From Anaeromyxobacter sp. Fw109-5 (GTDB lineage: Bacteria; Myxococcota; Myxococcia; Myxococcales; Anaeromyxobacteraceae): 64,000 bases of DNA. Below are positions 13,967 to 42,241 of the stretch, piece by piece (the first letter of the stretch is position 1; every line of letters begins with the position of its first letter). The stretch lies in contig NC_009675.1 of assembly GCF_000017505.1 (NCBI RefSeq), forward strand, positions 248,001-312,000, read 5' to 3'. Made by a program: the position numbers and the translations under genes. A model generated the notes under the pieces. The model saw only the letters and a program-made list of their open reading frames with translations. It was not told where the DNA came from and did not search any database.

Positions 13967-13974
13967 GGGGGCGC

Positions 13975-17743: not shown

Positions 17744-17747
17744 CTCC

Positions 17748-27100: not shown

Positions 27101-27307
27101 GCGGTGATCGGCGGCGTCATCACCTCGACGCTCCTCACCCTGCTCGTCATCCCGACCGTCTACGAGATCATGGACTCCTTCCGCGAGCGGGCGCTGCGGG
27201 GGTTCCGCCGCCTGCTGGGGGGCGGCCGGGGCGGGGGGAACGGGACGAGCGAGCCCGCGCCGGCGCCTCACGCGCGCGCGGGCGGGGTGAGGCGCGAGCT
27301 GGAGTAG
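24104..27307 (+). CDS. RND-family efflux permease (AcrB/MexF-like)
   Basis: A 1067-residue proton-driven exporter of the HAE-1/AcrB superfamily. One membrane helix starts at residue 10 (KKPIVTVTVMLALVIFGLIA). The first periplasmic porter loop includes FPDVQPPVVAVTIVYPGASPE, then helices 2-6 with GILIDDAIVVRENIVRH, the family's Asp-Asp proton relay. A second large loop (about 560-860) and helices 8-12 with LIGVILLFGIVAKNAILLID follow. Full length. Translation is likely coupled to the adaptor, as its ATG directly follows the adaptor stop. Substrate range is unknown; the leader hairpin at 22862 suggests controlled expression. Confidence 0.95.
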   Translation: MLISDFAIKKPIVTVTVMLALVIFGLIALVALKTDEFPDVQPPVVAVTIVYPGASPETVERELIDPIEDAIFSISGIDGEQTTASATDGLAQFIVFFDFEKDLQEATQDIRDAISEKRADLPLEMEEPIITRFDPADEPIVSLTLTSGSIDVPSLTRLADEVVSRELRAVQGVADVRLVGGRKRELTVELNPQAMAAAGVSASDVVGALQAQNLAAPVGRVNTPLGEQSIRLSGRLQTPDEFAAIAVATRGGQVVRLGQLGSVKDGAEEPRTLALYDTSEAVGLEVLKTKGYSTTAVADEIKARAKALEPRLPKAAKLQVVQDAGERVRRSVNEVQTTLVEGALLTVLVVFFFLNSWRSTVITGLALPVSVLAAFISVWMFGFTLNTMSLLGLSLAIGILIDDAIVVRENIVRHIELGEDHTTASFKGTDEIGLAVAATTFSIVSVFVPVAFMYGVAGQWFKPFALTIAAAVLVSLFVSFSLDPMMSAYWPDPQIEKGQARGPVGRALGAFNAWFDRQADRYKGVVAWALDHRWTMIALAGLSFFGAIFLQGAFGGAGFVPISDRSEVNLIVQTPPGSSLDYTRAKVEEANAIVRSHPEVKYVYSSIGTPIPLQAPGVDQALVYVRLVPKADRARSQEELGTTLRRELKRVAGAEISVFTSGFGGAFKSIQLELRGPDSRVLAQYAEKVKAVAQAVPGAVDVGLSTRGQKPELEVAVNRGLAGNLGVTVGQVAQSLRIAFAGLDSGDWVDPTGETRDVMVRLAPEARERAVDLRQLPLVLHPQNGGNPQVVPLGQVATVREGLGPAQIAHLDRERVINIQGNVAGRSLTEVVQDIERRLGAEVKLPPGYTIRQGGESRDQQEVFMRVGLALLLAVLLMYLILVLQFGSFLDPLAILLSLPLSLIGVVGALLLTGDTLNIMSLIGVILLFGIVAKNAILLIDFAKWAREERGISIRDALVEAGRIRLRPIMMTSVAIIAGMIPVALGAGEGGDFRAPLGRAVIGGVITSTLLTLLVIPTVYEIMDSFRERALRGFRRLLGGGRGGGNGTSEPAPAPHARAGGVRRELE

Positions 27308-27385: not shown

Positions 27386-28810
27386 CTACCACAGCCTCCG
27401 CAGCGCCGTCTGCGCCGCGTGGTACCCGCACATCCCGTGGACGCCGCCGCCCGGCGGCGTCGAGGCCGAGCAAAGGTACAGCCCGGGCACCGGGGTGGAC
27501 CAGGGGACGAGCCGCGCCGCGGGCCGGAACAGCGTCTGTCCCAGGGTGTTCGCGCCGGCGCCGACGTCCCCGCCCACGAGGTTGGGATCGTCGGCCTCCA
27601 GCGCAGCCGGCCCCCGCACGGCGCGCGTGAGGACGCGCTCGCGGAACCCCGGGGCGAAGCGCTCCAGCTGCGCCTCGAGCGCGCCGAGCGCGTCGCCGCC
27701 GAAGCCGCTCGGCACGTGGCAATAGGCCCAGGCGGTGTGCTTCCCGGGCGGCGCGCGCGGCGGGTCGAAGAGCGTGTGCTGCGCCACGAGCACGTAGGGG
27801 CGCACCGCGAGCTCGCCGCGCCAGACCGCCGCCTCGGACGCCGCGATCTCCTCGAGCGTGCCGCCGAGGTGCACCGTCCCCGCCCGCGCGCACTCCGCCG
27901 CGAGCCACGGGATGGGCCCGTCGAGCGCGTAGTCCACCTTGAAGGCGCCCGGCCCGTAGCGGAAGCGCGCGAGCGCCCGGGCGTACCGGCGCGGCAGCCG
28001 GTCGCCGGCGACGCGGAGCACCTGGCGCGGCGTGAGGTCGAGGAGGGTGGCGCGGGTCCGTGGGAGCGCGGCGAGGCTCCTCACCTCCTCGCCCGTCACG
28101 ATCTCGCCGCCCGAGGCGCGGAGGAGCGCGGCGAGCGCGTGCGGGATGGCCTGCGCTCCGCCGGCGGGGAACGGCCAGCCCTCCGCGTGCGCCGCCGCAC
28201 CGAGCACGAGCGCGAAGGCGGCGCTCGGCGCCCGCTCGAGCGGGAGCTGCGCGTGCGCGGCGAGCCCGGCGAGGAGCGCGCGCGCCCTCGGGCCGCGGAA
28301 GCGCGCCCGGGCGAGCGCCGAGGCCGGCACGAGGGCCGGCAGCGCGAAGCGCGCGAGGAGGAGGGGCCGGCGGGGGACGCGGACGAGCCCGCCCAGGAGC
28401 TCGTCCATGAGCTCCGGGAAGCGCTCCGCGAGCGGCGCGAAGAGCGCGCGCCAGGCCCGCGCGTCGCCGCGGTCGAGGCTCCCTCCCGTGGCCTCGAACG
28501 ACCGCGACAGCAGGGCGGCCGTGCCGTCGTCGAACGGGTGCGCGACGGCGATGGGAGGCTCGACCCACGTGACGCCGTGCGCCCCGAGCGGCAGGCGGCG
28601 CAGGAACGGCGAGCCCGCCGCGAGCGGGTGGATCGCCGAGCAGTGGTCGTGGTGGAAGCCGGGCAGGGTGAGCGACAGCGTGCGCGCGCCGCCGCCCACC
28701 TGCGCGTTCCGCTCGACGACGCGGACCCGCAGGCCGGCAGTGGCGAGCGCCACGGCGGCCGCGAGGCCGTTCGGGCCCGCGCCCACCACGATGGCGTCGG
28801 GAGCGCTCAC
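27386..28810 (-). CDS. FAD-dependent NAD(P)/phytoene dehydrogenase-like oxidoreductase
   Basis: A 474-residue flavoprotein of the COG1233 (CrtI/amine oxidase-like) group. The dinucleotide fold is at the N-terminus ([17 protein letters not shown], residues 6-22) with the acidic end [14 protein letters not shown]. The middle contains [19 protein letters not shown], the usual second FAD-contact region, and the C-terminus has the FAD signature [20 protein letters not shown]. Relatives act on carotenoids, retinoids or related polyenes; no other carotenoid gene is nearby, so the substrate is open. GTG 28810 was chosen because the FAD motif begins five residues later. It is divergent from the nos operon. 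Confidence 0.88.
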
Positions 28811-29062
28811 CGGCTGGTCGTAGCGGCGCCGGCCGGCCGCCGCGAGTGCCCGCGCCGGGGGAGCGCGGAACGGCGCGCGCCGGAGCGAGCCGCTCGGAGG
28901 CATGGCGGGGGAGGGTACGACCGGGCGTGCGCCAGTCGACCCGCAGTGCGAGCGGGGCCGATCGCCGCGCCCCAACGGCCGCGACCTCGGGGCGCCGTCA
29001 CGGTGCCGAAGATCCAGGGTCCCGACCGGCGCCGCCAAGCGCCGATCGAGCTGGGGGGCTTC

Positions 29063-31021
29063 ATGGCGATCCGTGCCCGGGTTCCGGAGCTCGAGGACTG
29101 GAAGGCACAGGTGAAGTGCCAGGCCGGCTGCCCCGTCGCCACCGACGCGGGGCGCTACGTGCAGCTGGTCGCGGCGCGGCGGTACGAGGACGGCTACCTC
29201 GTCGCGCGGGCGCCGAACCCGTTCGCCTCCGTCTGTGGCCGCGTCTGCGCCGCGCCGTGCGAGGACGCGTGCCGGCGCGGCAGCATCGACGCGCCCATCA
29301 CCATCCGGGCCCTGAAGCGGACGCTCTCCGAGCGCTTCGGCGTCGAGTCCGTCCACCCCGACACGCAGGATCGGCTGCTCGAGGCGCTGCTCCCCGAGGG
29401 CAACCGCTACGTGGGCCATCTCCCCGTGGCGCCCTTCTCGGCGCGCGGCCCGGAGGCCCGCCGCAAGGTGGCGGTGATCGGCGCGGGGCCGGCCGGCCTC
29501 TCCGCGGCGCACGATCTCGCGCTGCTCGGCTATGCCGTCACGGTGCTCGAGGCCTCGGACGAGCCGGGCGGCATGATGCGCTTCGGCATCCCGGAGTACC
29601 GGCTGCCTCGCGGCGTCATCCGCGCGGAGATCGAGAAGATCCTGTCGTTCGGCGTGACGCTCAGGACCGGGACGCCGCTCACCCCCTCGTTCGGGCTCGA
29701 GGCGCTCCGCCGGGACGGCTTCGAGGCGGTGTTCCTCTCCGTGGGCGTGCAGAAGGGCCGCGATCTCGAGCTGCCCGGGGTCGACCTGGACGGCGTCGTC
29801 AAGGCGGTGGACTACCTCCTCAACGCCAACCGCGGCTACCGCGTCGACCTCGGGCGCAAGGTCGTCGTCATCGGCGGCGGCTTCGTCGCGTTCGACGCCG
29901 CGCGCATGGCGCTCCGCCTCGGCCGCGAGGAGGCGCCGGAGATCGGCGCGCGCCTCGGCGAGGAGGTGGACGCGAGGATGAAGGAGGCGTTCGACGCCGC
30001 GCGGGAGGCGGTGCGGGGCGGCGCGACCGAGGTGACCATCGTCTCGCTCGAGAGCTTCGCGGAGATGCCGGTGCTGCGCACGTCGCAGGGCCACGAGGAG
30101 TTCGAGGAGGCGAAGCGCGAGGGGATCCGCTTCGAGCCGAGGCGAGGCCCGAGGCGGTTCCTGGGAGAGAAGCGGCTCGAGGCGGTGGAGCTGAGGCGCG
30201 TCATCTCGGTCTTCGACGAGGCGGGCCGCTTCTCGCCGCGCTACGACGACGCCGACGTCCTCGCGATCCCCGCCGACGCCTGCGTGCTCGCCATCGGCCA
30301 GCGCGCGGAGCTCTCCTTCCTGAAGCCGGAGGACGGGGTCGAGGTCACGCCCGGCGGGACCATCAAGGTGGACCGCGCCACCCTCGCCACCAGCGCGCCC
30401 GGGGTGTTCGCCGGCGGCGACGTGGCGTTCGGGCCGCGCAACCTCATCGAGGCGATCGCCAACGGCAAGCGCGCGGCGCGCTCGATCCACGAATACCTCT
30501 CGCGCGAGGCCGCCCGGGTCGAGGCGCTCCTCGAGATCGAGAAGATCCCCACCCGCGAGTACCGGATGATCGCCGGGTTCGAGGTGCTCGACCGCAGGCC
30601 GCCGCCGACGCTCGACCTCGGGCGGCGCACCGGCGTCGCGGAGGTCGAGATCGCGTTCTCGGAGGAGGAGGCGATCGCGCAGGGCGCGCGCTGCCTCGTC
30701 TGCCACGTGCAGACGATCTACGACCCGGAGAAGTGCGTCCTCTGCGGGCGCTGCGTGGACGTGTGTCCGGAGTACTGCCTGTCGCTCGTCCCCATCGAGG
30801 AGCTCGAGCTCCCGGAGGAGGAGCGGCGGGCGCTCGTCGCGCTCGCGCGCGCCGACGGGCTGCCGCTCTCGGCGATGCTGAAGGACGAGGAGAAGTGCAT
30901 CCGGTGCGGGCTCTGCGCCATCCGCTGCCCCACCGACGCGATGACGATGGAGCACTTCCAGATCACCGAGCGGTACGGGGCCGCGGGCGAGCGGGCCGCG
31001 CCGCGCGAGAGGTCGTCATGA
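29063..31021 (+). CDS. GltD-like FAD oxidoreductase with C-terminal 2x[4Fe-4S] ferredoxin domain
   Basis: A 652-residue protein combining three parts. An N-terminal Cys-rich cluster domain as in glutamate synthase small subunit (CQAGCP at 19-24, CGRVCAAPCEDACRRG near 57-72) is followed by an FAD/NAD(P)-binding pair of Rossmann folds (VIGAGPAGLSAAHDLALLG; VVVIGGGFVAFDAARMA). A C-terminal ferredoxin domain has CVLCGRCVDVCP (from 558) and CIRCGLCAIRCP (from 612). It could move electrons between NAD(P)H or ferredoxin and a membrane complex. It is first in the operon, and its stop overlaps the Rieske ATG, which argues that it works with the Rieske/cytochrome b complex. Exact donor and acceptor are inferred. 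Confidence 0.9.
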   Translation: MAIRARVPELEDWKAQVKCQAGCPVATDAGRYVQLVAARRYEDGYLVARAPNPFASVCGRVCAAPCEDACRRGSIDAPITIRALKRTLSERFGVESVHPDTQDRLLEALLPEGNRYVGHLPVAPFSARGPEARRKVAVIGAGPAGLSAAHDLALLGYAVTVLEASDEPGGMMRFGIPEYRLPRGVIRAEIEKILSFGVTLRTGTPLTPSFGLEALRRDGFEAVFLSVGVQKGRDLELPGVDLDGVVKAVDYLLNANRGYRVDLGRKVVVIGGGFVAFDAARMALRLGREEAPEIGARLGEEVDARMKEAFDAAREAVRGGATEVTIVSLESFAEMPVLRTSQGHEEFEEAKREGIRFEPRRGPRRFLGEKRLEAVELRRVISVFDEAGRFSPRYDDADVLAIPADACVLAIGQRAELSFLKPEDGVEVTPGGTIKVDRATLATSAPGVFAGGDVAFGPRNLIEAIANGKRAARSIHEYLSREAARVEALLEIEKIPTREYRMIAGFEVLDRRPPPTLDLGRRTGVAEVEIAFSEEEAIAQGARCLVCHVQTIYDPEKCVLCGRCVDVCPEYCLSLVPIEELELPEEERRALVALARADGLPLSAMLKDEEKCIRCGLCAIRCPTDAMTMEHFQITERYGAAGERAAPRERSS

Positions 31022-31524
31022 CCGAGCGGAAGGATCGGCGGGAGTTCCTGAAGGGCCTCGGCATCGGGGCGGGGGTCGTCGCCCTCGGCGGGCAGTCGGT
31101 CGCCGCGCTGCGCTCGCTCGTGCCGAACGTCTCGTACGACGCGCCCACCACCGTGAAGATCGGCGCGCCCGGCGAGTTCCCGGACGGGATGAAGTTCCTG
31201 CCGGAGCAGCGGCTGTTCGTGTTCCGCGAGGGGAAGGTGTTCCACGCCATCTCCGCCGTCTGCACGCACCTCGGCTGCACCGTGCGCGCCGAGGCGCTGC
31301 CGCGCGCGGAGACGAAGACCGTCGAGGGACAGCCGCTCAAGCTCACGCACCGCTTCCTCTGCCCGTGCCACGGCTCGCGCTACGAGGGCGACGGGCAGAA
31401 CGTGGCCGGACCCGCTCCGCGCCCGCTCGACTGGTACCACCTCGAGCTCGCGCTCGACGACGGACAGCTCGTGGTCGATCTGGCGAAGCCGGTGGACCGC
31501 GACTTCCGGCTGACCATCGCCTGA
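31018..31524 (+). CDS. Rieske [2Fe-2S] protein of a cytochrome bc-type complex
   Basis: A 168-residue membrane-anchored iron-sulfur protein on the periplasmic side of a quinol-oxidising complex. The N-terminal RREFLKGLGIGAGVV has the twin-arginine signal/anchor typical of Rieske proteins. Cluster ligands are C82 and H84 (CTHLGC) and C115 and H118 (CPCHGS), with the disulfide pair C87/C117. The 27 residues between the two boxes are more than in the usual bc1 and b6f proteins. It starts within the stop of the previous gene (ATGA), and cytochrome b follows after 10 bases with GAGGAGGA as ribosome binding site. Confidence 0.95.
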   Translation: MTERKDRREFLKGLGIGAGVVALGGQSVAALRSLVPNVSYDAPTTVKIGAPGEFPDGMKFLPEQRLFVFREGKVFHAISAVCTHLGCTVRAEALPRAETKTVEGQPLKLTHRFLCPCHGSRYEGDGQNVAGPAPRPLDWYHLELALDDGQLVVDLAKPVDRDFRLTIA

Positions 31525-31534
31525 GGAGGACGTC

Positions 31535-32881
31535 GTGGCCACCGCTCCCCGAACCGGAACGTCCCCGCCCGCCGCACCCGGCGTGCACCCGCGGCGGTTG
31601 TGGAGCCTCCGCCCGGCGTCGGATCGCCAGGCCGGCGACGCGATCGTCGCGAACTTCCTCCTGCACTGGTTCCCCGCGAAGGCGCTCCGCGCCTCCCTCG
31701 ACTGGCGGTACTCGCTCTGGCTGGGGACCGTCTCCGCGGCGCTCCTGCTCCTGCTCGTCGTGTCGGGCCTGCCCCTGCTCTTCCTGCACGTGCCGTCGGT
31801 GGAGCGCGCCTACGGGTCCGTGAAGGACATCGAGTACGTCGTCACCTTCGGCTCCTGGATCCGCTCCGTGCACCGCATCGCGGCCCACCTCATGGTGGCG
31901 GCGGTGTTCCTCCACCTCGTCCGGGTGTTCCTCACCGGCGCGTACAAGAACGGGACGGGGCGCGGGCAGCACCGAGAGTGGAACTGGGTGCTCGGCGTGG
32001 TGATGTTCCTCGTGACCCTGTTCCTCAGCTTCACGGGCTACCTGCTCCCGTGGGACCAGCTCGCCTACTGGGCGGTCACCGTGGGCACCAACATCGCCTC
32101 GGCGGTGCCGCTCGTCGGGGCGGAGGTGCGCGAGCTCCTGCTCGGCGGCCGGAACATCGATCAGCCGACGCTCATCCGCTTCTACGTGCTGCACGTGATC
32201 GTGCTGCCCGGCGCGCTCGGCGCGCTGTTCGCCTACCACATGTGGCGGATCCGCAAGGACGGCGGGCTCGCCTGCGCGGACCGCGCCGCCGCGCTCCCCG
32301 CGCCCGCGCCGGACGCGCCGGGCGCGACGAAGACCTACTCGCTCCTCGGGATCGCGCGCGGCACGGGCCCGACGATCCGCGCCACCTCCGTCGAGGCGCC
32401 GCTCACCACGGTGAACTCCGTCCCCGACCTCACGCGGCGGGCGGCCATCGTCGTCCTCGGCACCATCGCGGTGGTGAGCATCCTCGCGGTGCTCATCCGC
32501 TCGCCGCTCGAGGAGGCCGCGAACCCGCTCGTCACGCCGAACCCCGCCAAGGCCCCCTGGTACTTCCTCTGGCTGCAGGAGCTCGTCACCGACACCACCT
32601 TCCGCATCGGCTCCTTCACGGTGAACGGCGCGCTCGTGGGCGGGATCATCCTGCCCGGGATCCTGGTGACCGTCATGGCGATCTGGCCGTGGCTCGATCG
32701 GAGCCCGCCGGAGGCCGCCGGACGCTGGATGCCGAGGACCCGCCGGACGCAGAACGCGGTGTTCCTCGTGATCGTCCTGCTCGTGCTCCTCCTCACGTAC
32801 GTCGGGCTGTTCGTCCGAGGGCCGTACTGGAACCTCTACTGGCCGTGGGAGGCCTGGCCCGACATGCCGGGCCGGATCTGA
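31535..32881 (+). CDS. Cytochrome b of a menaquinol:cytochrome c oxidoreductase (fused b6 plus subunit IV type)
   Basis: A 448-residue integral membrane protein that holds two b haems and the quinol site. Haem ligands are H113 and H127 in the second helix and H220 and H235 in the fourth; the 14 residues between the latter pair follow the b6f-type pattern rather than mitochondrial bc1. GYLLPWDQLAYWAVTVG is the Qi/Qo helix block. The C-terminal domain (from about 325) carries KAPWYFLWLQEL, where the usual PEWY Glu is Pro (PWY at 341-343), as seen in some low-potential complexes. An Ala/Pro-rich linker separates the two halves. The start is GTG 31535. Confidence 0.94.
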   Translation: MATAPRTGTSPPAAPGVHPRRLWSLRPASDRQAGDAIVANFLLHWFPAKALRASLDWRYSLWLGTVSAALLLLLVVSGLPLLFLHVPSVERAYGSVKDIEYVVTFGSWIRSVHRIAAHLMVAAVFLHLVRVFLTGAYKNGTGRGQHREWNWVLGVVMFLVTLFLSFTGYLLPWDQLAYWAVTVGTNIASAVPLVGAEVRELLLGGRNIDQPTLIRFYVLHVIVLPGALGALFAYHMWRIRKDGGLACADRAAALPAPAPDAPGATKTYSLLGIARGTGPTIRATSVEAPLTTVNSVPDLTRRAAIVVLGTIAVVSILAVLIRSPLEEAANPLVTPNPAKAPWYFLWLQELVTDTTFRIGSFTVNGALVGGIILPGILVTVMAIWPWLDRSPPEAAGRWMPRTRRTQNAVFLVIVLLVLLLTYVGLFVRGPYWNLYWPWEAWPDMPGRI

Positions 32882-32883
32882 TC

Positions 32884-34113
32884 ATGGAACAGCGCAGCCC
32901 ATCGCCGTACCGCAGCCGTGACCGGCTGGTGCTCGCACTCGTCGGAGTCCTGCTCGTCGTGTCCACCGCCCTGTTCGCCTGGAAGGACTGGGTCCACGAC
33001 TGGCGCTACTACCAGTGGGAGTTCAAGCGGCGCGTCGCGGGTCAGCTCGGCGAGGACAAGGCGTCCGCCATACCGTCCGGCATGCTGCAGGTCTGGGTCC
33101 CCGCGCTGCAGCGCGCCGACCGGTGCGTGATGTGCCACCAGGCCACCGCCTGGAAGGGCTTCGAGGGCGCCGAGGAGCCATTCCGCACCCACCCCCCTGC
33201 CATCCTGGCGTCTCACCCCGTCGAGCGGTTCGGGTGCACCGCCTGCCACGGCGGCCAGGGGTACGCGGTCGACGTCGAGGAGGCGCACGGCCCGGTCCAG
33301 CACTGGGAGGAGCCGGTGCTCGGCGAGTTCCTCGGGGAGGGGTACTCGCTCGCGGGCGACCGCGGCGCGCTCCTGCAGATGAACTGCAACGTCTGCCATC
33401 GCTACGACCGCGCGACGAAGGGCGCGGACGCCATCAACCTGGCGAAGCGGCTCGTCGGGGAGAAGGGTTGCCGCGCCTGCCACGTGATCAACGGCCGCGG
33501 CGGGAACATCGGGCCGGATCTCACCTTCGTGGGCGACAAGGCGCCGGAGCAGTTCGACTACACGCGCCTGCTCGGCCAGCGGACGATGTTCGCCTGGCAC
33601 GTGGCGCACTTCCGGGAGCCGAAGGCGCTCGTGCCCGACACCGTCATGCCGAACTTCAACTTCTCGACCGAGCAGGTGCAGGCGCTCTCGATGCTCGTCA
33701 TGTCCTGGCGCAACGAGCCCGTGCCGGCCGCCTACCTCGCGGGCGCGCCGCGGACCGATCCGCAGACCCCTCAGGAGATCGAGGAGGAGCGGCGGATGCT
33801 CACCGGACCGGGGGCGTGGTTCGTGAAGACCGGCTGCTTCGTCTGCCACAACGTCTCGTCGCTCGGCGTGAAGAGCCCGGCGCAGATCGGCCCCGATCTC
33901 TCGAACGCGGTCGAGGACGTGCAAGCGCGCTTCGGCCGCACCGTCGACGACTTCCTGCGCGCGCCGACCGGCACGATGTCGGTGGTGCTCTCGCGGCAGA
34001 TCGTCCTCACGCCGGCGGAGCTCGAGGTGGCGATCGGGAAGGTCCGCGAGGCTTACGCCGCGTGGCTGGAGCAGCAGAAGGCGAAGGGAGAGCCCGCGCC
34101 GGCCCGGCGCTGA
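32884..34113 (+). CDS. Pentaheme membrane-anchored cytochrome c
   Basis: A 409-residue cytochrome with one N-terminal membrane helix (about 15-33) and a periplasmic part. It has five CxxCH haem motifs: CVMCH (81), CTACH (118), CNVCH (168), CRACH (196) and CFVCH (318). The latter part of the chain has methionines such as TVMPNF that could be axial ligands of class I domains. It replaces cytochrome c1 in this complex and, lying between cytochrome b and nosZ, is the likely electron carrier from the Rieske/cytochrome b pair to NosZ. ATG at 32884, 2 bases after the cytochrome b stop. Confidence 0.92.
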   Translation: MEQRSPSPYRSRDRLVLALVGVLLVVSTALFAWKDWVHDWRYYQWEFKRRVAGQLGEDKASAIPSGMLQVWVPALQRADRCVMCHQATAWKGFEGAEEPFRTHPPAILASHPVERFGCTACHGGQGYAVDVEEAHGPVQHWEEPVLGEFLGEGYSLAGDRGALLQMNCNVCHRYDRATKGADAINLAKRLVGEKGCRACHVINGRGGNIGPDLTFVGDKAPEQFDYTRLLGQRTMFAWHVAHFREPKALVPDTVMPNFNFSTEQVQALSMLVMSWRNEPVPAAYLAGAPRTDPQTPQEIEEERRMLTGPGAWFVKTGCFVCHNVSSLGVKSPAQIGPDLSNAVEDVQARFGRTVDDFLRAPTGTMSVVLSRQIVLTPAELEVAIGKVREAYAAWLEQQKAKGEPAPARR

Positions 34114-34132
34114 GCGTGGCACAGGAGGCACC

Positions 34133-36076
34133 ATGTCGTCCTCGAAGAGCGTCTCGAAGCCACTCGCGATCGCCGCGGTCCTGGTCGCGGCGGCCGCGGT
34201 CGCGGTGCGCTGTGCGCCCAGGGAGCCGAAGGGAGCGAGGCGGGAGGCCGCCAAGTCGGACGTCTCGGTCGCGGCGCAGAAGACGTACGTCGCCCCGGGG
34301 GATCTCGACGAGTACTACATGTTCTCCTCCGGCGGTCACTCCGGTCAGGTGTTCATCTATGGCCTCCCGTCGATGCGCCACCTCGCGACCATCCCGGTGT
34401 TCGCGCCGTACCCCGCCACGGGCTACGGCTTCGACGACGAGACGAAGGAGATGCTCGGGAAGCTCACCTGGGGCGACGTGCACCACCCGGCGCTCTCCGA
34501 GACCAAGGGCGACTACGACGGCCGCTGGCTGTTCGTGAACGAGATGAACGGCCGGATCGCGCGCATCGATCTGCGCGACTTCAAGACGCGGCAGATCATC
34601 GGGCCGGTCCCGAACGTCTCCGGGAACCACGGCTCGGCGTTCGTCACCCCCAACACCGAGTACGCCATGATGTCCTCCCGGTTCTCGATCCCCATCCCCA
34701 AGGGGACGGCCGTCTCGATCGACAAGTACGCGAGCGAGTACAAGGGCATCGTCGCAGGGATCAAGATCGACCCGGAGTCCGGGAAGATGTCGCTCGGCTG
34801 GCAGGTGGCGCTCCCGCCGTTCGACTGGGATCTGGGCGACGCCGGCAAGCTCGTCTCCGACGGGTGGATGTTCCTCACCTGCTACAACTCCGAGCGCGGC
34901 ACCGGCAAGCTCGAGGTCACCGCGTCGCAGCGCGACCGGGACTACATCGCGGCGATCAACTGGCGCGAGGCGGAGAAGGCCGCTGCCGAGGGGAAGGGCG
35001 ACCTCATCGGCGGGGTGAAGGTGCTCGACCCGCGCAAGGTGCCCGGGCTCGTGTACCTCATGCCCTGCGGGAAGTCGCCGCACGGCGTGGACGTCTCGCC
35101 GGACGGCAAGTACATCATCGGCTCAGGGAAGCTGCAGGGCGTCACCACCGCCTTCAACTTCGAGAAGGTCCTCACCGCGATCAAGAACAAGGACTTCACC
35201 GGCGAGGAGGACGGCATCCCGGTCCTCAAGTACGAGTCGATCAAGGACGCCGAGGTGCCGGTGGGGCTCGGGCCCCTTCACACGCAGTTCGGCCCGGACG
35301 GCTGGGCGTACACCTCGCTCTTCGTCGACAGCGCGCTCGCGAAGTGGAAGCTCGGGACCTGGGAGGTCGTGGACAAGGTCCCCATGTCGTACTCGACCGG
35401 CCACCTCTCCGCCGCCGAGGGTGACACCGTGTCGCCCGACGGGAAGTGGCTCGTGGGCCTGAACAAGCTCTCCCACGGGCGCCACCTGTCGGTGGGGCCG
35501 TCGCAGCCCGAGTCCTCGCAGCTGGTGGACATCTCCGAGGACAAGATGAAGCTCGTGTACGACGCCTTCACCGAGCCGGAGCCGCACTACGCGCAGATCA
35601 TCAAGGCGGACAAGGTGAAGCCGATCGAGGTCTACAAGAAGGAGGAGAACAAGAACCCGCTCGCGGTGTGGGACGTGAAGGACACGGGCGCGAGCCGCAA
35701 GGGAAACGAGGTGGTGGTGAAGATGACCGCGGTGCGCTCCACCTTCACGCCGCAGCTCATCGAGGTGAACCAGGGCGACACGGTGAAGGTGGCGGTGACG
35801 AACATCGAGCAGACGACGGACGAGCTGCACGGCTTCGGGCTGCTCGACTACAACATCAACCTCGTCGTCGATCCCGGCGAGACGAAGGTCGTCACGTTCA
35901 AGGCCGACAAGCCGGGCGTGTTCCCCTACTACTGCACGAACTTCTGCTCCGCGCTCCACCAGGAGATGCAGGGCTACCTCGTGGTCCGGCCCGCGCGTGC
36001 CGCGGCGCCGGCCGAAGGCGACGAGGGCGGTGGCGCGCGGGCCGGCCGGGAGGAGACCAGGAGGGGACCGCGATGA
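34133..36076 (+). CDS. nosZ: Nitrous oxide reductase, clade II (atypical, Sec-type)
   Basis: NosZ reduces N2O to N2 in the periplasm with a CuZ cluster and a CuA centre. The 647-residue protein has a seven-bladed propeller with CuZ His blocks GDVHHPALSET, GNHGSAF, KSPHGVDVSPDGKY, LHTQFGPDGWAY and EPHYAQII. A cupredoxin domain follows with the CuA motif CTNFCSALHQEM (C601, C605, H609, M612). The signal lacks a twin-arginine, which with nosB downstream and the Rieske/cytochrome b genes upstream is the hallmark of clade II. An unusual 29-residue Ala/Gly/Glu/Arg-rich tail follows the CuA domain. GGAGG precedes the ATG; nosB overlaps the stop. Confidence 0.97.
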   Translation: MSSSKSVSKPLAIAAVLVAAAAVAVRCAPREPKGARREAAKSDVSVAAQKTYVAPGDLDEYYMFSSGGHSGQVFIYGLPSMRHLATIPVFAPYPATGYGFDDETKEMLGKLTWGDVHHPALSETKGDYDGRWLFVNEMNGRIARIDLRDFKTRQIIGPVPNVSGNHGSAFVTPNTEYAMMSSRFSIPIPKGTAVSIDKYASEYKGIVAGIKIDPESGKMSLGWQVALPPFDWDLGDAGKLVSDGWMFLTCYNSERGTGKLEVTASQRDRDYIAAINWREAEKAAAEGKGDLIGGVKVLDPRKVPGLVYLMPCGKSPHGVDVSPDGKYIIGSGKLQGVTTAFNFEKVLTAIKNKDFTGEEDGIPVLKYESIKDAEVPVGLGPLHTQFGPDGWAYTSLFVDSALAKWKLGTWEVVDKVPMSYSTGHLSAAEGDTVSPDGKWLVGLNKLSHGRHLSVGPSQPESSQLVDISEDKMKLVYDAFTEPEPHYAQIIKADKVKPIEVYKKEENKNPLAVWDVKDTGASRKGNEVVVKMTAVRSTFTPQLIEVNQGDTVKVAVTNIEQTTDELHGFGLLDYNINLVVDPGETKVVTFKADKPGVFPYYCTNFCSALHQEMQGYLVVRPARAAAPAEGDEGGGARAGREETRRGPR

Positions 36077-36759
36077 CGCGCCTGCTCGAGAGCAGCCACC
36101 GCGCGCTCTCGTCGCCGGTCGGAGGCACGCCGCGGGCGCTCGTCCTCGCGGCGGCGCTCCTGCTCCTGCCCACCTACTTCCTGCCGCTCTGGAACCTGAC
36201 GATGTTCGCGCCGCAGTACCAGGGCGGGCTGCGGCTCGACATCTACAGCTACAAGCTCGAGGGCGGGAACGAGGGCCAGGATCTGAAGGAGATCAACCTC
36301 CTCAACCACTACATCGGGATGCGAGATCTCAGGGAGGACGACTTCCGCGAGTTCCAGTGGATGCCGTTCGTGATCGGCGTCCTGGCGCTGCTCTTCCTGC
36401 GCGCGATCGTGATGGGCCGGCTGCTCGACCTCGTGGACTCGACGGTCCTGTTCGCCTGGTTCGCGGGGTTCTCCGGGTGGTCGTTCGCGTACAAGCTGTA
36501 CAGATACGGGCACGACCTCGCCCCGACGGCGCCGGTGAAGGTGGACCCGTTCATGCCGCCGCTCTTCGGCGGGACGCAGCTCGCCAACTTCGAGGTCTAC
36601 TCGTACCCCGCCGCTGGATCGTACGCGCTCCTCGCGGCGGGGCTGGCGCTCGTCGCCGCCCTGCTCCTCGCGGCGCGCGCGGCGCTCCGGGAGGCGCGGG
36701 CTGCACGCGGCGGGACGTCCCCGGCCGGCGCCTCCTCGGCCCGGACCGCCGCACGATGA
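36073..36759 (+). CDS. nosB: Clade II nos-cluster membrane protein NosB
   Basis: A 228-residue protein with about four to five membrane segments (near 20-42, 93-115, 120-140 and 175-200) and a conserved extracytoplasmic stretch, LPLWNLTMFAPQYQGGLRLD, then LLNHYIGM. A protein of this type directly follows nosZ in clade II clusters such as that of Wolinella (NosB); its function is unknown. It starts within the nosZ stop (ATGA), and its own stop overlaps nosD, so the three are translationally coupled. Confidence 0.85.
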   Translation: MTRLLESSHRALSSPVGGTPRALVLAAALLLLPTYFLPLWNLTMFAPQYQGGLRLDIYSYKLEGGNEGQDLKEINLLNHYIGMRDLREDDFREFQWMPFVIGVLALLFLRAIVMGRLLDLVDSTVLFAWFAGFSGWSFAYKLYRYGHDLAPTAPVKVDPFMPPLFGGTQLANFEVYSYPAAGSYALLAAGLALVAALLLAARAALREARAARGGTSPAGASSARTAAR

Positions 36760-38135
36760 TCGCCGCGGCCCTGCTCCTCGCCGTCGCCGCGGGCCAGGGC
36801 GACATGCCGGCGATCCCGGCGGGGGACGTCGAGGGGCGGCCGCCGCGCGGCGAGGCCTCGCCGCTGCAGGCGCGGATCGACGCGGCGCCGCCTGGCGCGC
36901 GCGTGGAGGTCGGGCCCGGCGAGTACGCCGGCGATCTGTTCCTCGACCGCCCGATCCACCTCGCCGGCCGCGGCCGGCCGCGGCTCGTCGGGGCCGGCAA
37001 GGGGAGCGTGGTCCGGATCCGCGCCCCGGGGGTGGTGATCGAGGGGTTCGACATCGACGGGCGGGAAGGCGGTGACCTCGGCCGCGACTCGGCCGGCGTG
37101 CACGTCGCCGCGCCCGGCGCCGTGGTGCGCGACTGCCGGATCGAGCGGGCGCTCTTCGGCGTGTACCTGCGCGAGGCGCACGGCGCCCGCGTGGAGGGGA
37201 ACACCGTCCACGGCATCCCCGGGAAGGAGCCCGGCGAGAAGGGCTCCGGCGTCCACGTGTGGAACACCGAAGGGTTCACGCTCGAGCGGAACGTGGTGTG
37301 GCACGCGCGCGACGGGTTCTACATCCAGTCCTCCCCGCACGGCGTCATCCGCGGCAACGTGGCGCGCGAGCTCCGCTACGGGCTCCACTACATGTTCTCG
37401 GACGACAACGTGTTCGAGGAGAACACGTTCGAGGCGAACGCGGCCGGCGCGGTGCTCATGTACTCTCGACGGATCGAGTTCCGCCGCAACCGCTTCCTGC
37501 ACAACCGCGGCTTCGCCTCGGTCGGGCTCCTGTTCAAGGCCTGCGACGACGCGATCGCCGAGGACAACCTCTTCGCCGACAACGCGCGCGGCATCTTCCT
37601 CGAGGGCTCGTACCGGAACGTCTTCCGGCGGAACGTCGTCGCGGAGTCGGACGCGGCCATCGTGCTCTACGACTCGTGCGGCGAGACCCGCTTCGAGGGG
37701 AACGCCTTCATCGGGAACCTCACCTCCCTCGACCTGGTCGGCCGCCGGACCGACACGAGCTTCGACGGGAACTACTGGTCGGACAACGACCAGCCGGATC
37801 TCGACGGTGACGGGAGGAGCGACCGGCCCTACGTCCTCGGCAGCCTGTTCGACCACCTGCGCGGGAACCTCGCCGCGGCGGACCTCCTCGCCCAGAGCCT
37901 CGCCGCCGCCGCGCTCGCCGCGGCGGAGCGGAGCTTCCCCGTGCTCGCGCCCATCCAGGCGGTGGATCGCGCCCCGCTCGCGCGCGCGCCGCGCCTGCCC
38001 GCGGTCCCCACCGTTCGGTCGGCCGGGCGGCGCGTCTCCGCTCCCGGCCTCGCCGGGTCCGCGGCGGCGATCGTGCTCGGTCTCGCCGTGCTCGGCGGCG
38101 GCCGAAGGTCCGGGCGCGCAGAGGAGGAGCGGTGA
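36756..38135 (+). CDS. nosD: Periplasmic copper-site maturation protein NosD
   Basis: NosD is a right-handed beta-helix protein needed to build the CuZ site, working with the NosFY transporter. The 459-residue product has a signal (MIAAALLLAVAAGQG) and parallel beta-helix repeats from about 70 to 340, including GNTVHGIPG, WHARDGFYIQSS, RYGLHYMFSDDN and FDGNYWSDNDQPDLDGDG, the family's conserved ending. A C-terminal hydrophobic stretch (about 430-449) followed by Arg residues could anchor it in the membrane. It overlaps nosB by 4 bases and nosF by 4 bases. Confidence 0.95.
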   Translation: MIAAALLLAVAAGQGDMPAIPAGDVEGRPPRGEASPLQARIDAAPPGARVEVGPGEYAGDLFLDRPIHLAGRGRPRLVGAGKGSVVRIRAPGVVIEGFDIDGREGGDLGRDSAGVHVAAPGAVVRDCRIERALFGVYLREAHGARVEGNTVHGIPGKEPGEKGSGVHVWNTEGFTLERNVVWHARDGFYIQSSPHGVIRGNVARELRYGLHYMFSDDNVFEENTFEANAAGAVLMYSRRIEFRRNRFLHNRGFASVGLLFKACDDAIAEDNLFADNARGIFLEGSYRNVFRRNVVAESDAAIVLYDSCGETRFEGNAFIGNLTSLDLVGRRTDTSFDGNYWSDNDQPDLDGDGRSDRPYVLGSLFDHLRGNLAAADLLAQSLAAAALAAAERSFPVLAPIQAVDRAPLARAPRLPAVPTVRSAGRRVSAPGLAGSAAAIVLGLAVLGGGRRSGRAEEER

Positions 38136-39031
38136 TCCGGTTCGAGGCGCTCTCGAAGCGCTACGGCCCGAACCGCGCGGTCGAAGGGCTCACCCTCACG
38201 GTGGGGGCCGGAGAGGTGGTGGCGCTCCTCGGCCCGAACGGCTCGGGCAAGACCACCTCGCTCAAGGCGGCGGCCGGGCTCGTCCGTCCCACGTCGGGGC
38301 GCGTGCTCGTCGGCGATCCGGGCGTCAGCGCGGCCGAGCCGCGGGCGCGGCGAGCGCTCTCGTTCCTGCCGCAGAAGGTGAGCTTCCCGGACGCGCTCAC
38401 CGGCGCGGAGGTGGTCGAGTTCTACCGGCGCCTGCGGGGCGGAGCGCCCGGCGCGGCGCGCGAGGTGCTGCGCACCGTCGCCCTGAACGGCGCGGCCTCG
38501 CGGGCGATCGGCACCTACTCCGGGGGCATGGTCCAGCGTCTCGGGCTCGCGGTCGCCGCCCTGCCGGACGCGCGCAGCTACCTGCTCGACGAGCCCACCT
38601 CGTCGCTGGATCCCGATGGCCTGTGCGCGTTCTACGGGCTCGCCGAGCGCTGGCGCCGCGCGGGCAGGTCCGTCCTGTTCAGCTCTCACCAGCTCGGGGA
38701 CGTGGAGCGGCTCGCCGACCGCGTGGCCGTCCTGGTGGAGGGACGCCTCGTGGCCCAGCTCGGGCAGCGGGAGCTCCAGGACCGGCTCGTCGGGCGGGGC
38801 CTCCTGCGGGTGCGGCTCGATCGCTGCCCGCCCGCGCTGGAGGGCAAGCTCGCGCGGCTCGCGCCCGGTGCGCGCTGGACGGGCGAGGAGGTGATCGTCC
38901 CCGGCACGCCGGCGGTGCGCGCCGCGGCGGTGGAGGCGATCCGCGCGGAGGGTCTGGAGCTGCGCGGCCTCTCCGCCGAGGAGGGGCGCCTCGACGCGCT
39001 CTACCGCGAGCTCGTGGAGGGGACCGCATGA
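38132..39031 (+). CDS. nosF: ABC transporter ATP-binding protein NosF
   Basis: The 299-residue ATPase of the NosDFY complex that supports NosZ copper-cluster assembly. Walker A is LGPNGSGKTTS (about 34-44), the Q-loop lies in SFLPQKVSFPD, the signature is YSGGMVQRLG, Walker B is SYLLDEPTSSLDP, and the switch His is in FSSHQLGD. The C-terminal 80 residues form the extra domain typical of NosF-type ATPases. Start and stop overlap nosD and nosL by 4 bases each. Confidence 0.95.
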   Translation: MIRFEALSKRYGPNRAVEGLTLTVGAGEVVALLGPNGSGKTTSLKAAAGLVRPTSGRVLVGDPGVSAAEPRARRALSFLPQKVSFPDALTGAEVVEFYRRLRGGAPGAAREVLRTVALNGAASRAIGTYSGGMVQRLGLAVAALPDARSYLLDEPTSSLDPDGLCAFYGLAERWRRAGRSVLFSSHQLGDVERLADRVAVLVEGRLVAQLGQRELQDRLVGRGLLRVRLDRCPPALEGKLARLAPGARWTGEEVIVPGTPAVRAAAVEAIRAEGLELRGLSAEEGRLDALYRELVEGTA

Positions 39032-39471
39032 GGAACGCGTCCGCCGTGCTGCTCGTCGCCCTGTCCTGCTCGCGCGGACCGCCCGCCCCGGCGCCGCTCG
39101 ACACGCGCAACGACGCCTGCGCGCAGTGCCGCATGGCCGTGTCCGACCCACGGTTCGCCGCCCAGCTCGTCGCGGCGCGCGAGGAGCCACGGTTCTTCGA
39201 CGACATCGGCTGCCTGCGCGACTTCCTGAGGGCGCACGCGTCGCTCCCGGACGGCGCCGTCGCGTACGTGGCGGACCACCGGACGCGGGCGTGGGTGCGC
39301 GCCGCGGCCGCCCGGTACACGCGCGACGACGCGCTCGCGACGCCGATGTCCTCGCACCTCGTCGCGCACGCCGACGACGCGTCGCGCGCCGCCGACCCCG
39401 AGGCGGCGCGAGGGGTCCGGATCACCGTCGCGGAGGTCTTCGGGCCGGGCGGAGTCCCCGACGCCCGATGA
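39028..39471 (+). CDS. nosL: Copper chaperone lipoprotein NosL
   Basis: NosL binds Cu(I) and delivers it for NosZ maturation. The 147-residue lipoprotein has a signal ending ALSC (Cys14), the copper-site block ACAQCRMAVSDPRFAAQL, followed by FDDIGCLRDF, and the later YTRDDALATPMSSHLVAHAD matching the conserved end of the NosL fold with Met and His. Its order after nosF and before nosY differs from many Gram-negative clusters (nosDFYL). Overlaps both neighbours by 4 bases. Confidence 0.93.
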   Translation: MRNASAVLLVALSCSRGPPAPAPLDTRNDACAQCRMAVSDPRFAAQLVAAREEPRFFDDIGCLRDFLRAHASLPDGAVAYVADHRTRAWVRAAAARYTRDDALATPMSSHLVAHADDASRAADPEAARGVRITVAEVFGPGGVPDAR

Positions 39472-40313
39472 CGCCGCCGCTGCCATCTCCGCTCCTGCTC
39501 GTCGCGCGCCAGGAGCTGCTCCTCGCGGCGAGGTCGCGCTGGACGCAGATCTTCGCGGCGGTGTTCGCCGTGCTCGCCCTCGGCGTCGCGTTCTCCGGGT
39601 ACGTCCTCTCGGGTGGGAGCGGGTTCCAGGACTTCGCCCGGACGAGCGCCTCGCTCGTGCAGCTCGTCGCGCTGGTCGTGCCGCTGGCGTCGCTCCTCAT
39701 GGGAGTCCTGTCGCTCGCGCCCGAGCGGGGGACGGTCGAGCTCCTCTTCGCGCAGCCGGTGGCGCGCCGCACCATCCTCGCCGGGAAGCTGCTCGGCCTC
39801 CTCGCGGCGCTCGCCGCGGCGCAGGCGGTCGGGTTCGGGCTCGCGGGCCTCGTCATCTTCTCGCAGGCGGGCGAGGCGGGGGGCGCCGGGTACGCGCTGC
39901 TCGTCCTCGGATCGATGGTGCTCACCGCGGTGTTCCTCGCCGTCGCGGCGCTCGTGGCCTCCGGTGCGGTCGGCCGCAAGCGCGCCCGCGCGATGGCGGT
40001 GGCGATCGTGGTCTGGTTCGCGGCGGTGGTCCTCTTCGACCTCGCAGCGCTCGCGATCGCCTCGGTGCTGCCGTCGGGGACGGCCTCGCGGCTCCTCGCC
40101 GTCTCGGTGATCGTCAACCCCGTGGGCGCGGTGAGGACCGGGGCGCTCCTCGCCATCGAGGGGACCGCGGCGTTCGGGGCCGCGTCGCTCGCCTTCCTGC
40201 GCTTCACGGGCGGCGAGCCGGGCGCGGCGGCGGCCCTCTGCGCGTCGCTCCTCCTCTGGATCGCCGTGCCGGCGCTCCTCGCCGCTTGGAGGCTCGGGCG
40301 CATCGATCTGTAG
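39468..40313 (+). CDS. nosY: ABC transporter permease NosY
   Basis: The 281-residue membrane subunit of NosDFY, with about six to seven hydrophobic segments starting near residue 27 and typical ABC-2 features: N-terminal LLVARQELLLAARSRWTQIF, the conserved SFASLLMG-like block VPLASLLMGVLSLAPERGTVELLFAQPVAR, and INPVGA-like VNPVGAVRTG near residue 220. It is the last gene of the operon; a 123-base gap to the sigma gene follows, without a clear hairpin. Confidence 0.93.
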   Translation: MTPPLPSPLLLVARQELLLAARSRWTQIFAAVFAVLALGVAFSGYVLSGGSGFQDFARTSASLVQLVALVVPLASLLMGVLSLAPERGTVELLFAQPVARRTILAGKLLGLLAALAAAQAVGFGLAGLVIFSQAGEAGGAGYALLVLGSMVLTAVFLAVAALVASGAVGRKRARAMAVAIVVWFAAVVLFDLAALAIASVLPSGTASRLLAVSVIVNPVGAVRTGALLAIEGTAAFGAASLAFLRFTGGEPGAAAALCASLLLWIAVPALLAAWRLGRIDL

Positions 40314-40375
40314 GGGGCCGAGGCGGGGCGCGGGATCCGCCTGCCGGCGAGCGGGCGGGCGGGCGGGCGCCGGCG

Positions 40376-40381
40376 TACAAT
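40376..40381 (+). promoter_or_regulatory. Candidate -10 box TACAAT for the ECF sigma operon
   Basis: TACAAT overlaps a possible ATG (40380) of the sigma gene and sits 55 bases before the GTG at 40437, which has its own GGAG. It favours the GTG start. No ECF-type self-regulated -35 (AAC-containing) was recognised upstream. Confidence 0.35.
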
Positions 40382-40436
40382 GGGCGTAGATCGAAGTCGC
40401 GCCTGGCGCGTTCACCGCGCAGGGCCCGGAGCACGC

Positions 40437-41045
40437 GTGGCGGCGGACGAGAGCGACGAGCGACTCATGCTGCGGTTCCAGGCCGGCGACGCGCGGGCCT
40501 TCGAGGCGCTCGTGGGCCGGCACCGCACCCCCGTCTTCTCGTTCCTCGTGCGGCTCACCGCCGACCGCGCGCGCGCCGAGGATCTCTGTCAGGAGGTGTT
40601 CCTCAAGGTGGTGAAGGCGTCGAGGACATGGGAGGAGCGCGCGCGGTTCCGGACGTGGCTCTACGCGATCGCGCGGAACCTCGCGGTGGACGAGGCGCGC
40701 CGGGCCGCCTTCCGCAGGGCCGAGCCGCTCGACGCGCCAGGCCTCGCCGGCGCCGCGGCGTACCCCGCGGGCGATCCGGCGCCGGACGCCGCCGCCGAGG
40801 CGGCGCTGCTCCGGCCCAAGCTCGAGGCGGCGCTCGCGGCGCTCCCGGACGAGCAGCGTGAGGTGTTCCTCCTGCGCGAGTACGCGGGCCTGCGCTTCGC
40901 GGAGATCGCGGACGTCACGGGCACCCCGGAGAACACGGTGAAGAGCCGCATGCGCTACGCGCTGGAGGGGCTGCGCGAGGCGCTCGCCGCCCTCGGCGTC
41001 GGCCCCGAGGTCCCGGTTTCCGCGGCAGGAGGCGCCTCCCCATGA
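40437..41045 (+). CDS. ECF-type RNA polymerase sigma factor
   Basis: A 202-residue group IV sigma factor. Region 2 covers about 12-80 (LMLRFQAGDARAFEALV, RAEDLCQEVFLKV, FRTWLYAIARNLAVDEAR), and region 4 covers about 125-180 (LPDEQREVFLLREYAGLRF, EIADVTGTPENTVKSRMRYA, a helix-turn-helix). GTG 40437 with GGAG 5 bases upstream was preferred over ATG 40380, which has no ribosome binding site and overlaps TACAAT. It overlaps the downstream anti-sigma gene by 4 bases, the standard pairing. Target genes are unknown. Confidence 0.92.
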   Translation: MAADESDERLMLRFQAGDARAFEALVGRHRTPVFSFLVRLTADRARAEDLCQEVFLKVVKASRTWEERARFRTWLYAIARNLAVDEARRAAFRRAEPLDAPGLAGAAAYPAGDPAPDAAAEAALLRPKLEAALAALPDEQREVFLLREYAGLRFAEIADVTGTPENTVKSRMRYALEGLREALAALGVGPEVPVSAAGGASP

Positions 41046-42241
41046 GCCACGAGCGCTTCAGCGAGCGGATCCTCGACCTCGCCTACGGCGAGCTCTCGCC
41101 GCGCGAGGCGGGCGAGGTGGAGGCGCACGCGGCCACGTGCGCCGGGTGCGGCGCGGAGCTCGCGCGCATCCGCGCGACGCGGCGGCTGATGGCGGCGCTC
41201 CCGGACGAGCGGGCGCCGGACCGGGGAGAGGGCGTCCTCCTCGCGGCGGCGCGCGAGGAGGTGCGCGGGCGCGCGCCGGCGCGGAGCTGGTCGCGCTGGA
41301 GGTGGTCGACGTCCGTCGTCGCGGCGCTCCTCCTGGCGGTGGGGGCCGTCTCGTATCGCCTCCTCGAGATGAGACCCGCCGCGGAGCGGGGCGGCGAGGA
41401 GCTCCTCGGGCGCGGACGATACGCGGAGGCTCCGCCGAGCCCGGAACCTTCCGGCGAGGGGGTGGCGAAGGCCGAGGCGCCGGACGAGGCGCTGAACGAC
41501 ATGCGCGCAGAACCTCCCTCCGTGGCGCAGGCGCCCCGGCCGGAGGGGGCGGCGCGGCCGCGCGCGGAGCTGGCCGCCCCCACCCGCCGCGAGGTGCGAT
41601 CGGCTCCGACCCCTGACGCCCAGGGGAAGCACGCGGCGTCCGCCCCGGCCCGCGAGGAGGAGGCCGCGCCCGCTGCGCGCCGCGCGTACGCGGAGGCCCC
41701 GGCCGACCCGAGCCGTGCCGAGGACGCGGAGGTCGCGAGCGCCGCGGCCGGCGCGGCGGAGGAGGCGGCGGGCTTCGCGGCGCCGCCCGAGCGCGCCCCC
41801 GAGGCGCCGTCGCGGAGCGCCGTCGCCGCAGCGCGTCCTCGGAGCGCCGGCGCACCGGCCGCGGCGCCGGCGGCCGCGCCGGAGCCTGACGGCGCCGCCG
41901 AGGCCGCCTCGTCGGCGGACGCGCTCGAGCGCTACGCCACGCTGAGGGCGCACGGGGCGCTGGCAGGCGAGATCCGCACCTTCGTCGGCTGCGAGGGCGA
42001 GGCATGGCGAAAGGTGGAGCGCGATCGCCAGGGCCGGGTCGTGAAGTACGTGCGGGAGGGGCGCATCGGCGGGGCCCGCGTCCGGGTCGAGCACCTCTTC
42101 GACGCGGACGGACGGCTCGCCGCGGTGCGGGCCACCGACGTGGAGCGGGGCGCCGCAGTCGAGCCCGGCGCGCTCGGGCTCACGCTGCCGCGCCACGCCG
42201 GCGAGGCCGGCGCCGACGCGCCACCCCGCTGCGAGCGCTGA
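41042..42241 (+). CDS. Membrane-bound anti-sigma factor with zinc-finger (ZAS-like) domain
   Basis: A 399-residue partner of the preceding sigma factor. The N-terminal anti-sigma domain has the zinc-binding set H29-x3-C33-x2-C36 (EAHAATCAGC), then a membrane helix at about 90-108. The extracytoplasmic part starts with an unusually long low-complexity region (about 120-300) of Ala, Pro, Glu and Arg. It ends with a folded domain (about 310-385) containing CEGEAWRKVERDRQGRVVKYVREG and DADGRLAAVRATD, which could be the sensing part. The low-complexity linker hampers homology assignment. Confidence 0.85.
   Translation: MSHERFSERILDLAYGELSPREAGEVEAHAATCAGCGAELARIRATRRLMAALPDERAPDRGEGVLLAAAREEVRGRAPARSWSRWRWSTSVVAALLLAVGAVSYRLLEMRPAAERGGEELLGRGRYAEAPPSPEPSGEGVAKAEAPDEALNDMRAEPPSVAQAPRPEGAARPRAELAAPTRREVRSAPTPDAQGKHAASAPAREEEAAPAARRAYAEAPADPSRAEDAEVASAAAGAAEEAAGFAAPPERAPEAPSRSAVAAARPRSAGAPAAAPAAAPEPDGAAEAASSADALERYATLRAHGALAGEIRTFVGCEGEAWRKVERDRQGRVVKYVREGRIGGARVRVEHLFDADGRLAAVRATDVERGAAVEPGALGLTLPRHAGEAGADAPPRCER

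Follow-up and report, generated by a model that had tools for sequence, protein, structure and literature searches.

What is a flavoprotein gene doing at the head of an operon for nitrous oxide (N2O) respiration? This question is raised by a locus of Anaeromyxobacter sp. Fw109-5, which was analyzed in a 64,000-nt stretch of the genome (NC_009675.1, positions 248,001 to 312,000), referred to below as the window. The operon occupies window positions 29063 to 40313 of the forward strand (coordinates at this locus are those of the window) and comprises ten genes, encoding a flavoprotein, a Rieske protein, a cytochrome b, a pentaheme cytochrome c and the N2O reductase NosZ, followed by NosB, NosD, NosF, NosL and NosY (Table 1). 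We propose that the products of the first four genes would form one membrane complex, in which the flavoprotein would be a cytoplasmic subunit containing flavin adenine dinucleotide (FAD) and iron-sulfur (Fe-S) clusters and binding nicotinamide adenine dinucleotide [NAD(H)], with the pentaheme cytochrome c facing the periplasm. That such an NAD(H)-linked complex exists is, in our judgment, quite probable.

An earlier first-pass annotation had described these genes as one unbroken run. This was confirmed with Pfam and NCBIfam profiles and by counting CxxCH motifs: the intergenic gaps do not exceed 19 bases, and four-base overlaps are present at six of the nine junctions, including an ATGA that joins the stop codon of the flavoprotein gene to the start of the Rieske gene. 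A scan of positions 28600 to 40700 found no terminator-like sites, and the promoter and terminator scans of the locus were negative, as expected for such GC-rich DNA. NosZ is Sec-dependent, with 913 bits in the TIGR04246 model (cut-off 625) versus 463 bits in the twin-arginine translocation (TAT)-type model, and its gene is accompanied by nosD, nosF, nosY and nosL, as in clade II nos clusters. The host genome (5,277,990 bp, one contig) encodes a single nos_propeller protein and a single PF00033 protein, the latter being the cytochrome b of the operon.

The flavoprotein had been regarded as part of the respiratory system, and its absence or unlinking in relatives with the same nos cluster was therefore looked for in Myxococcota and Acidobacteriota; neither was encountered. 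Among 24 genomes of Anaeromyxobacteraceae, nine encode this NosZ, and in all nine the flavoprotein gene lies ∼5 kb upstream and heads the operon (76–80% protein identity in the eight relatives). In the Acidobacteriota sample, NosZ was identified in 39 of 347 genomes. The operon-type protein (≥63% identity) occurs in 21 of these, and 20 of the 21 also encode the flavoprotein (≥55% identity), on the nosZ contig and strand in 19 cases and on another, short contig in one (G356). The remaining genome (G393) was considered as a counterexample and dropped, since its contig ends inside the pentaheme cytochrome gene, upstream of nosZ. No flavoprotein of ≥55% identity was found in the 18 acidobacterial genomes with other NosZ types; the single match in this group, from G303, is a more distant protein encoded on a different contig. 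The other acidobacterial nos clusters that were inspected are without the entire module. Three NosZ proteins of such clusters (loci L163, L165 and L167) have lipobox-like starts (such as LAGC and LGAC) and may be lipoproteins.

A scan of GTDB genomes identified at least 522 relatives, and the loci of the best 80 were examined together with those of the family. The gene order flavoprotein–Rieske–cytochrome b–cytochrome c–nosZ, whose occurrence in other genomes had been a question of the first-pass annotation, was kept on one strand in all 32 complete nos-linked loci. According to their records, the relatives belong to Myxococcota, Acidobacteriota, Bacteroidota/Ignavibacteriota/Chlorobiota and Planctomycetota, and one metagenome-assembled genome labelled Acidimicrobiia clusters with Acidobacteria. 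The maintenance of this order across phyla rules out a chance neighbourhood. The linkage data support the conclusion that the flavoprotein is not incidental to the nos operon, but belongs to a complex.

Counterparts of this complex are present in Kuenenia stuttgartiensis, for which two NAD(P)-linked Rieske/cytochrome b complexes, Kuste4569-4574 and Kustd1480-1485, have been described (PMC12954380). According to the same paper, which cites Kartal et al., a Rieske/cytochrome b complex that bifurcates electrons and reduces NAD(P) had already been proposed for anammox bacteria. Among PDB entries, the Anaeromyxobacter Rieske protein matched the Kuenenia Rieske proteins 9rk4 and 9rk3 best. The 9rk4 sequence was found with a 100% match in one genome, in which loci L180 and L181 carry the kuste4569-4574 and kustd1480-1485 gene sets. 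The flavoprotein aligns almost end to end with the two Kuenenia NAD(P) oxidoreductases, at 34–36% identity (E values of 2e-97 and 1e-117), and the Rieske protein, cytochrome b and multiheme cytochrome c also match their Kuenenia counterparts, so that every subunit of the module is homologous. The His and Arg/Lys residues assigned to the proposed interface heme are present here as H44, R240, K241, R563 and R621, corresponding to His43 (Kuste4571), Arg247, Lys267 (Kustd1481), Arg511 (Kuste4570) and Arg550 (Kustd1483), respectively, of Hauser et al. At the FAD-adjacent cluster, K85 takes the place of the fourth cysteine, and it is probably the lysine named in the Kuenenia paper.

Both systems thus co-encode a Rieske protein, a b6-type cytochrome b with subunit IV, an NAD(P) oxidoreductase with the same Cys and Lys residues, and an anchored multiheme cytochrome c. 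In Anaeromyxobacter, however, the gene order starts with the flavoprotein, a single fused gene encodes cytochrome b rather than separate b6 and subunit IV genes, and the heme cN cysteine is replaced by Trp62. The Anaeromyxobacter cytochrome has five hemes, and the acceptor is N2O reductase, in contrast to a hydroxylamine oxidoreductase (HAO)-like octaheme protein in Kuenenia. Because the heme cN cysteine is missing from most module relatives as well, we read the Anaeromyxobacter complex as a variant of the anammox-type complex, not as a strict member.

The same data bear on the view that the Rieske/cytochrome b pair serves NosZ as a standard proton-translocating quinol:cytochrome c reductase, while the flavoprotein is a loose cytosolic partner outside the electron path, acting as a redox sensor or in maturation or iron-sulfur repair. 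In favor of this view, all four heme histidines of cytochrome b (H113, H127, H220 and H235) are conserved, and clade II nos clusters with neighbouring Rieske/cytochrome b genes are known, as the first-pass annotation had already noted, from PMC13122619 (legend of Fig. 2) and from Wolinella work cited in PMC10653820. A loose association is nevertheless difficult to reconcile with the strict linkage and order across phyla, with the position of the flavoprotein gene next to Rieske/cytochrome b genes even where nos is missing, and with the reported co-migration of all Kuste4569-4574 subunits (PMC12954380), and we consider it improbable.

The flavoprotein combines Fer4_20 with a GltD-like FAD/NAD domain (Pyr_redox_2), and two 4Fe-4S motifs lie at its C-terminal end. 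At the cofactor site, where NADPH-binding homologues have Tyr-Arg-Arg (YRR; 9n5u, 8oh5, 9bov and 4ylf), it carries S328-L329-E330, and (S/C)LE was found at this site in nearly all proteins in which the motif could be located. The cofactor is therefore predicted to be NAD(H) rather than NADP(H). Both Kuenenia flavoproteins (L180, L181) carry the NADP-type YRR, in contrast to the LE of nearly all other module flavoproteins examined, and cofactor use may split the family.

Conservation also extends to the predicted Fe-S clusters. The segment C544-x2-C547, present in 92 of 92 flavoproteins, probably corresponds to the N-terminal segment of NfnL (...ERCLQC); in 9bov and 8oh5, the same RCLxC segment comes after the Rossmann domain. 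In HMMER alignments, NfnL residues 5-48 and 4ylf_B residues 15-43 aligned to flavoprotein positions 508-550, matches that are weak on their own. We predict that C544 and C547 supply the DPD/NfnL-type N-terminal CxxC from the C-terminal side, and that they complete the second N-terminal cluster with C19 and C70. Four clusters would then be present, ligated by (i) C23/C62/C66/K85, (ii) C19/C70/C544/C547, and (iii, iv) the two ferredoxin-type motifs C558-C568 and C612-C622. The cysteines and K85 are conserved in the alignment, and their grouping into clusters is our assignment. An AlphaFold2 model built from 14 sequences reached a predicted local distance difference test (pLDDT) value of 65, with a poor C-terminal half; in a Foldseek search with a medium-confidence model, NfnABC, StnABC and NfnI ranked first.

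These relatives share with the flavoprotein its fold and domain order (GltD/NfnL family, including NfnAB) and the CxxC after the Rossmann domain (9bov, 8oh5). NfnABC and StnABC handle ferredoxin, and together with the C-terminal 2x[4Fe-4S] motifs this could indicate that the cytosolic partner is ferredoxin, exchanging electrons with the C-terminal domain, and not NAD(H). In contrast to the Nfn/Stn enzymes, however, the complex has a membrane Rieske/cytochrome b partner, an NAD-type SLE motif instead of YRR, and no NfnS-like or ferredoxin-reducing partner, the small NfnS gene being absent from the ten genes. The NAD-binding GGGxVA sequence and the cofactor motif are conserved in the flavoproteins, and in the Kuenenia models the corresponding clusters wire FAD to heme b (PMC12954380). 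For the C-terminal 2x[4Fe-4S] part, the reading as an internal wire is preferable, and a ferredoxin partner seems very improbable. The first-pass annotation had allowed electrons to enter or leave as NAD(P)H or ferredoxin; the homology to Kuenenia upholds an NAD(H)-linked point of exchange, the SLE motif speaks against NADPH, and the ferredoxin site gives way to the internal wire.

The Rieske protein contains CPCHGSRY, with the second-sphere Ser and Tyr of Kuste4569, in which both residues raise the potential, determined as +303 mV (PMC12954380). The Ser was retained in every linked Rieske protein examined. Cytochrome b was closest to b6 among PDB entries, and, as with Trp62 here, most module relatives are without the heme cN Cys. 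The complex shares the Rieske protein and b-heme core with b6f and bc1 complexes, but it has the additional flavoprotein, and a pentaheme cytochrome in place of cytochrome c1 or cytochrome f. Position 44 of cytochrome b is His in 93 of 95 aligned rows, the remaining two being gapped. An extra, His-ligated heme b between the cytochrome b dimer and the flavoprotein is a prediction of the Kuenenia paper (PMC12954380). His44 was considered as a diagnostic of flavoprotein-linked cytochromes b and dropped, since the control locus L157 has this His with no flavoprotein nearby; a second control, L158, was left out because its contig ends. L157 is a Rieske/cytochrome b locus of a genome of the same genus (G003), and its cytochrome b keeps the LHLHP histidine motif. 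The cytochrome c has five CxxCH motifs, and five hemes are predicted in all 30 nos-linked rows compared.

The best explanation of these features, to which we would give about an even chance, is that quinol electrons are bifurcated between NosZ (downhill) and NAD+ (uphill). The Rieske/cytochrome b core would oxidize quinol at its outer quinone site. One electron would then reach NosZ, the site of N2O reduction, through the Rieske cluster and the five hemes, while the other would travel via hemes bP and bN, and perhaps an interface heme held by His44, to the Fe-S chain and FAD. After two turnovers NAD+ would be reduced to NADH, and N2O respiration would in this way raise electrons from the quinol pool to NAD+. 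Bifurcation is supported by the Rieske protein with both potential-raising residues and by the lack of the heme cN Cys at the inner quinone site.

Textbook potentials are about −74 mV for menaquinone and −320 mV for NAD, and the potential of N2O/N2 is about +1.36 V. With the Rieske cluster assumed to be near +300 mV, the calculated downhill step amounts to ∼0.37 V per electron, compared to an uphill step of 0.25 V to NAD+, which makes bifurcation to NAD+ feasible and the preferred reading. The margin is enough without a membrane potential and tight with one, and the N2O/N2 couple keeps the acceptor side oxidized. The argument for the direction from quinol to NAD+ is thus energetic, not experimental, and we hold this direction with evenly divided confidence. 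Several points weigh against bifurcation. The electron direction is a proposal in Kuenenia as it is here. The bc1 complexes are likewise without heme cN and still reduce quinone, and the inner quinone site may therefore be active. His44 also occurs outside flavoprotein-linked cytochromes b (L157), the NADP-type motif of the Kuenenia flavoproteins indicates that the substrate may differ, and the Rieske potential assumed here derives from sequence similarity.

The same conserved wiring would also serve the opposite flow, in which the flavoprotein oxidizes NADH and electrons enter at heme bN to reduce quinone or feed a quinol cycle. The complex would then act as an NADH:cytochrome c (NosZ) oxidoreductase and circumvent complex I. 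The NAD(H)-type motif is as in catabolic NADH use, and a flavoprotein relative located after a NuoG-like gene (L101) suggests that such proteins can act in the manner of an NADH dehydrogenase. However, this flow would waste energy that complex I would conserve, an argument made for Kuenenia, and the host genome encodes complex I (one NuoF-type protein), so that NADH oxidation needs no second route. Nor does it account for the conservation of the Ser that raises the Rieske potential, and we regard it as unlikely. Bifurcation toward NAD+ remains the explanation that we prefer. The wider claim, that the complex is common to several phyla and bifurcating, with N2O respiration driving NADH formation without reverse flow through complex I, is made tentatively, at a little short of even confidence.

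To examine the history of the module, 90 flavoproteins were placed in a quick maximum-likelihood tree. One clade of 42 contained all of the 33 nos-linked proteins, with a Shimodaira–Hasegawa-like approximate likelihood ratio test (SH-aLRT) value of 97. The contigs of the nine unlinked members end too early, except for L096 and L080. The latter, a flavoprotein gene with no Rieske gene downstream, is a real exception, beside L096 (Chloracidobacterium sp. UBA7656, positions 9980-18526 of that contig), whose module has a four-heme cytochrome, in which the fifth heme is missing, and is without nos genes. This single case suggests that the fifth heme serves NosZ. The L096 module is followed by genes for cytochrome c assembly (PF01578), a nitrate-reductase-delta-like protein (PF02613) and cytochrome c. 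Pairwise distances of the flavoprotein, cytochrome b, pentaheme cytochrome and NosZ were correlated (r of 0.89–0.95, 30 loci), as expected for genes inherited as a unit, a result compatible with vertical descent as well as with joint transfer.

Outside the nos clade, the module occurs without nos genes, with 4-, 6- or 8-heme cytochromes and with cytochrome b either fused or split. NosZ was absent from the four genomes examined that have other module types, and the flavoprotein–Rieske–cytochrome b–multiheme c set is therefore a general device, a portable module whose acceptors are swapped. A different context was observed in L101 (Methylomirabilota, positions 7651-11239), where the flavoprotein relative directly follows a NuoG-like gene, with no Rieske gene nearby; this suggests that such a relative can replace the NADH-oxidizing part of a complex I-like enzyme.

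The features of the operon are listed in Table 1. Inspection of translations by eye identified, 3′ of nosY on the same strand (40380-42241), genes for an extracytoplasmic function (ECF)-type sigma factor and an overlapping anti-sigma-like protein. Upstream of the operon, also on the same strand (22910-27307), genes for a membrane-fusion protein and a resistance-nodulation-division (RND) efflux pump were noted by eye.

Table 1. Genes and predicted sequence features of the nos operon in the window.
Feature	Position	Strand	Basis or remark
Flavoprotein, GltD/NfnL-type NAD(H)/FAD oxidoreductase, 652 aa	29063-31021	+	Pfam Fer4_20, Pyr_redox_2, Fer4
S328-L329-E330, in place of Tyr-Arg-Arg of NADPH-binding homologues	30044-30052	+	predicted NAD(H) specificity
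C544-x2-C547, CxxC segment	30692-30703	+	at N terminus in NfnL, after Rossmann domain here
Rieske [2Fe-2S] protein, N-terminal Tat-type anchor	31018-31524	+	PF00355, TIGR01409
CPCHGSRY, second-sphere Ser and Tyr as in Kuste4569	31360-31383	+	sequence motif
Cytochrome b, fusion of b6-type and subunit IV-like domains	31535-32881	+	PF00033, PF13631, PF00032
His44 of cytochrome b (Kuste4571 His43, Kustd1481 His62)	31664-31666	+	alignment
Pentaheme cytochrome c, N-terminal membrane anchor, replaces c1/f	32884-34113	+	five CxxCH
Fifth heme motif of cytochrome c	33835-33849	+	absent in one close relative without nos (L096); candidate NosZ docking heme
nosZ, clade II (Sec-type)	34133-36076	+	TIGR04246, 913 bits
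nosB, membrane protein	36073-36759	+	named by position and conservation; no Pfam/NCBIfam match
nosD	36756-38135	+	TIGR04247, 391 bits
nosF, ABC ATPase	38132-39031	+	PF00005
nosL	39028-39471	+	PF05573
nosY, ABC permease	39468-40313	+	PF12679

The anammox complexes, the proposal of their bifurcation, and the occurrence of Rieske/cytochrome b genes next to clade II nos genes have already been published. Complexes with such an additional NADH-handling subunit have to date been described solely for anammox bacteria. The locus shares with those clade II clusters the TIGR04246-type NosZ, nosB, nosD, nosF, nosL and nosY, and a quinol-oxidizing Rieske/cytochrome b pair, and differs from them in having a conserved NAD(H)-type flavoprotein as the lead gene. 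In a 2026 paper on Acidobacteriota, such nos clusters are labelled with a Rieske protein, cytochromes of the b and c types and an 'Fe-S protein' (PMC13122619), and the flavoprotein may be drawn there under the last of these labels. In the one open-access library searched, no description of a link between nosZ, Rieske and flavoprotein genes was found, which is not in itself proof of novelty. The tie between the anammox complexes and nos, its breadth, and the NAD-type variant were likewise absent from that library.

Outside Wolinella, little is known of how clade II N2O reducers supply NosZ with electrons. The energy yield expected from N2O respiration would be altered if a conserved NAD(H)-linked complex operates in Anaeromyxobacter, Acidobacteriota, Ignavibacteria and their relatives, and culturable hosts with a clean, strongly oxidizing acceptor would allow the anammox proposal of quinol bifurcation to be tested. 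The anammox complexes sit in a wide family, in which the flavoprotein/Rieske/cytochrome b core is constant while the multiheme cytochrome and the terminal reductase are exchanged. Across several phyla, bacteria of soil and sediment may couple the reduction of N2O to the production of NADH.

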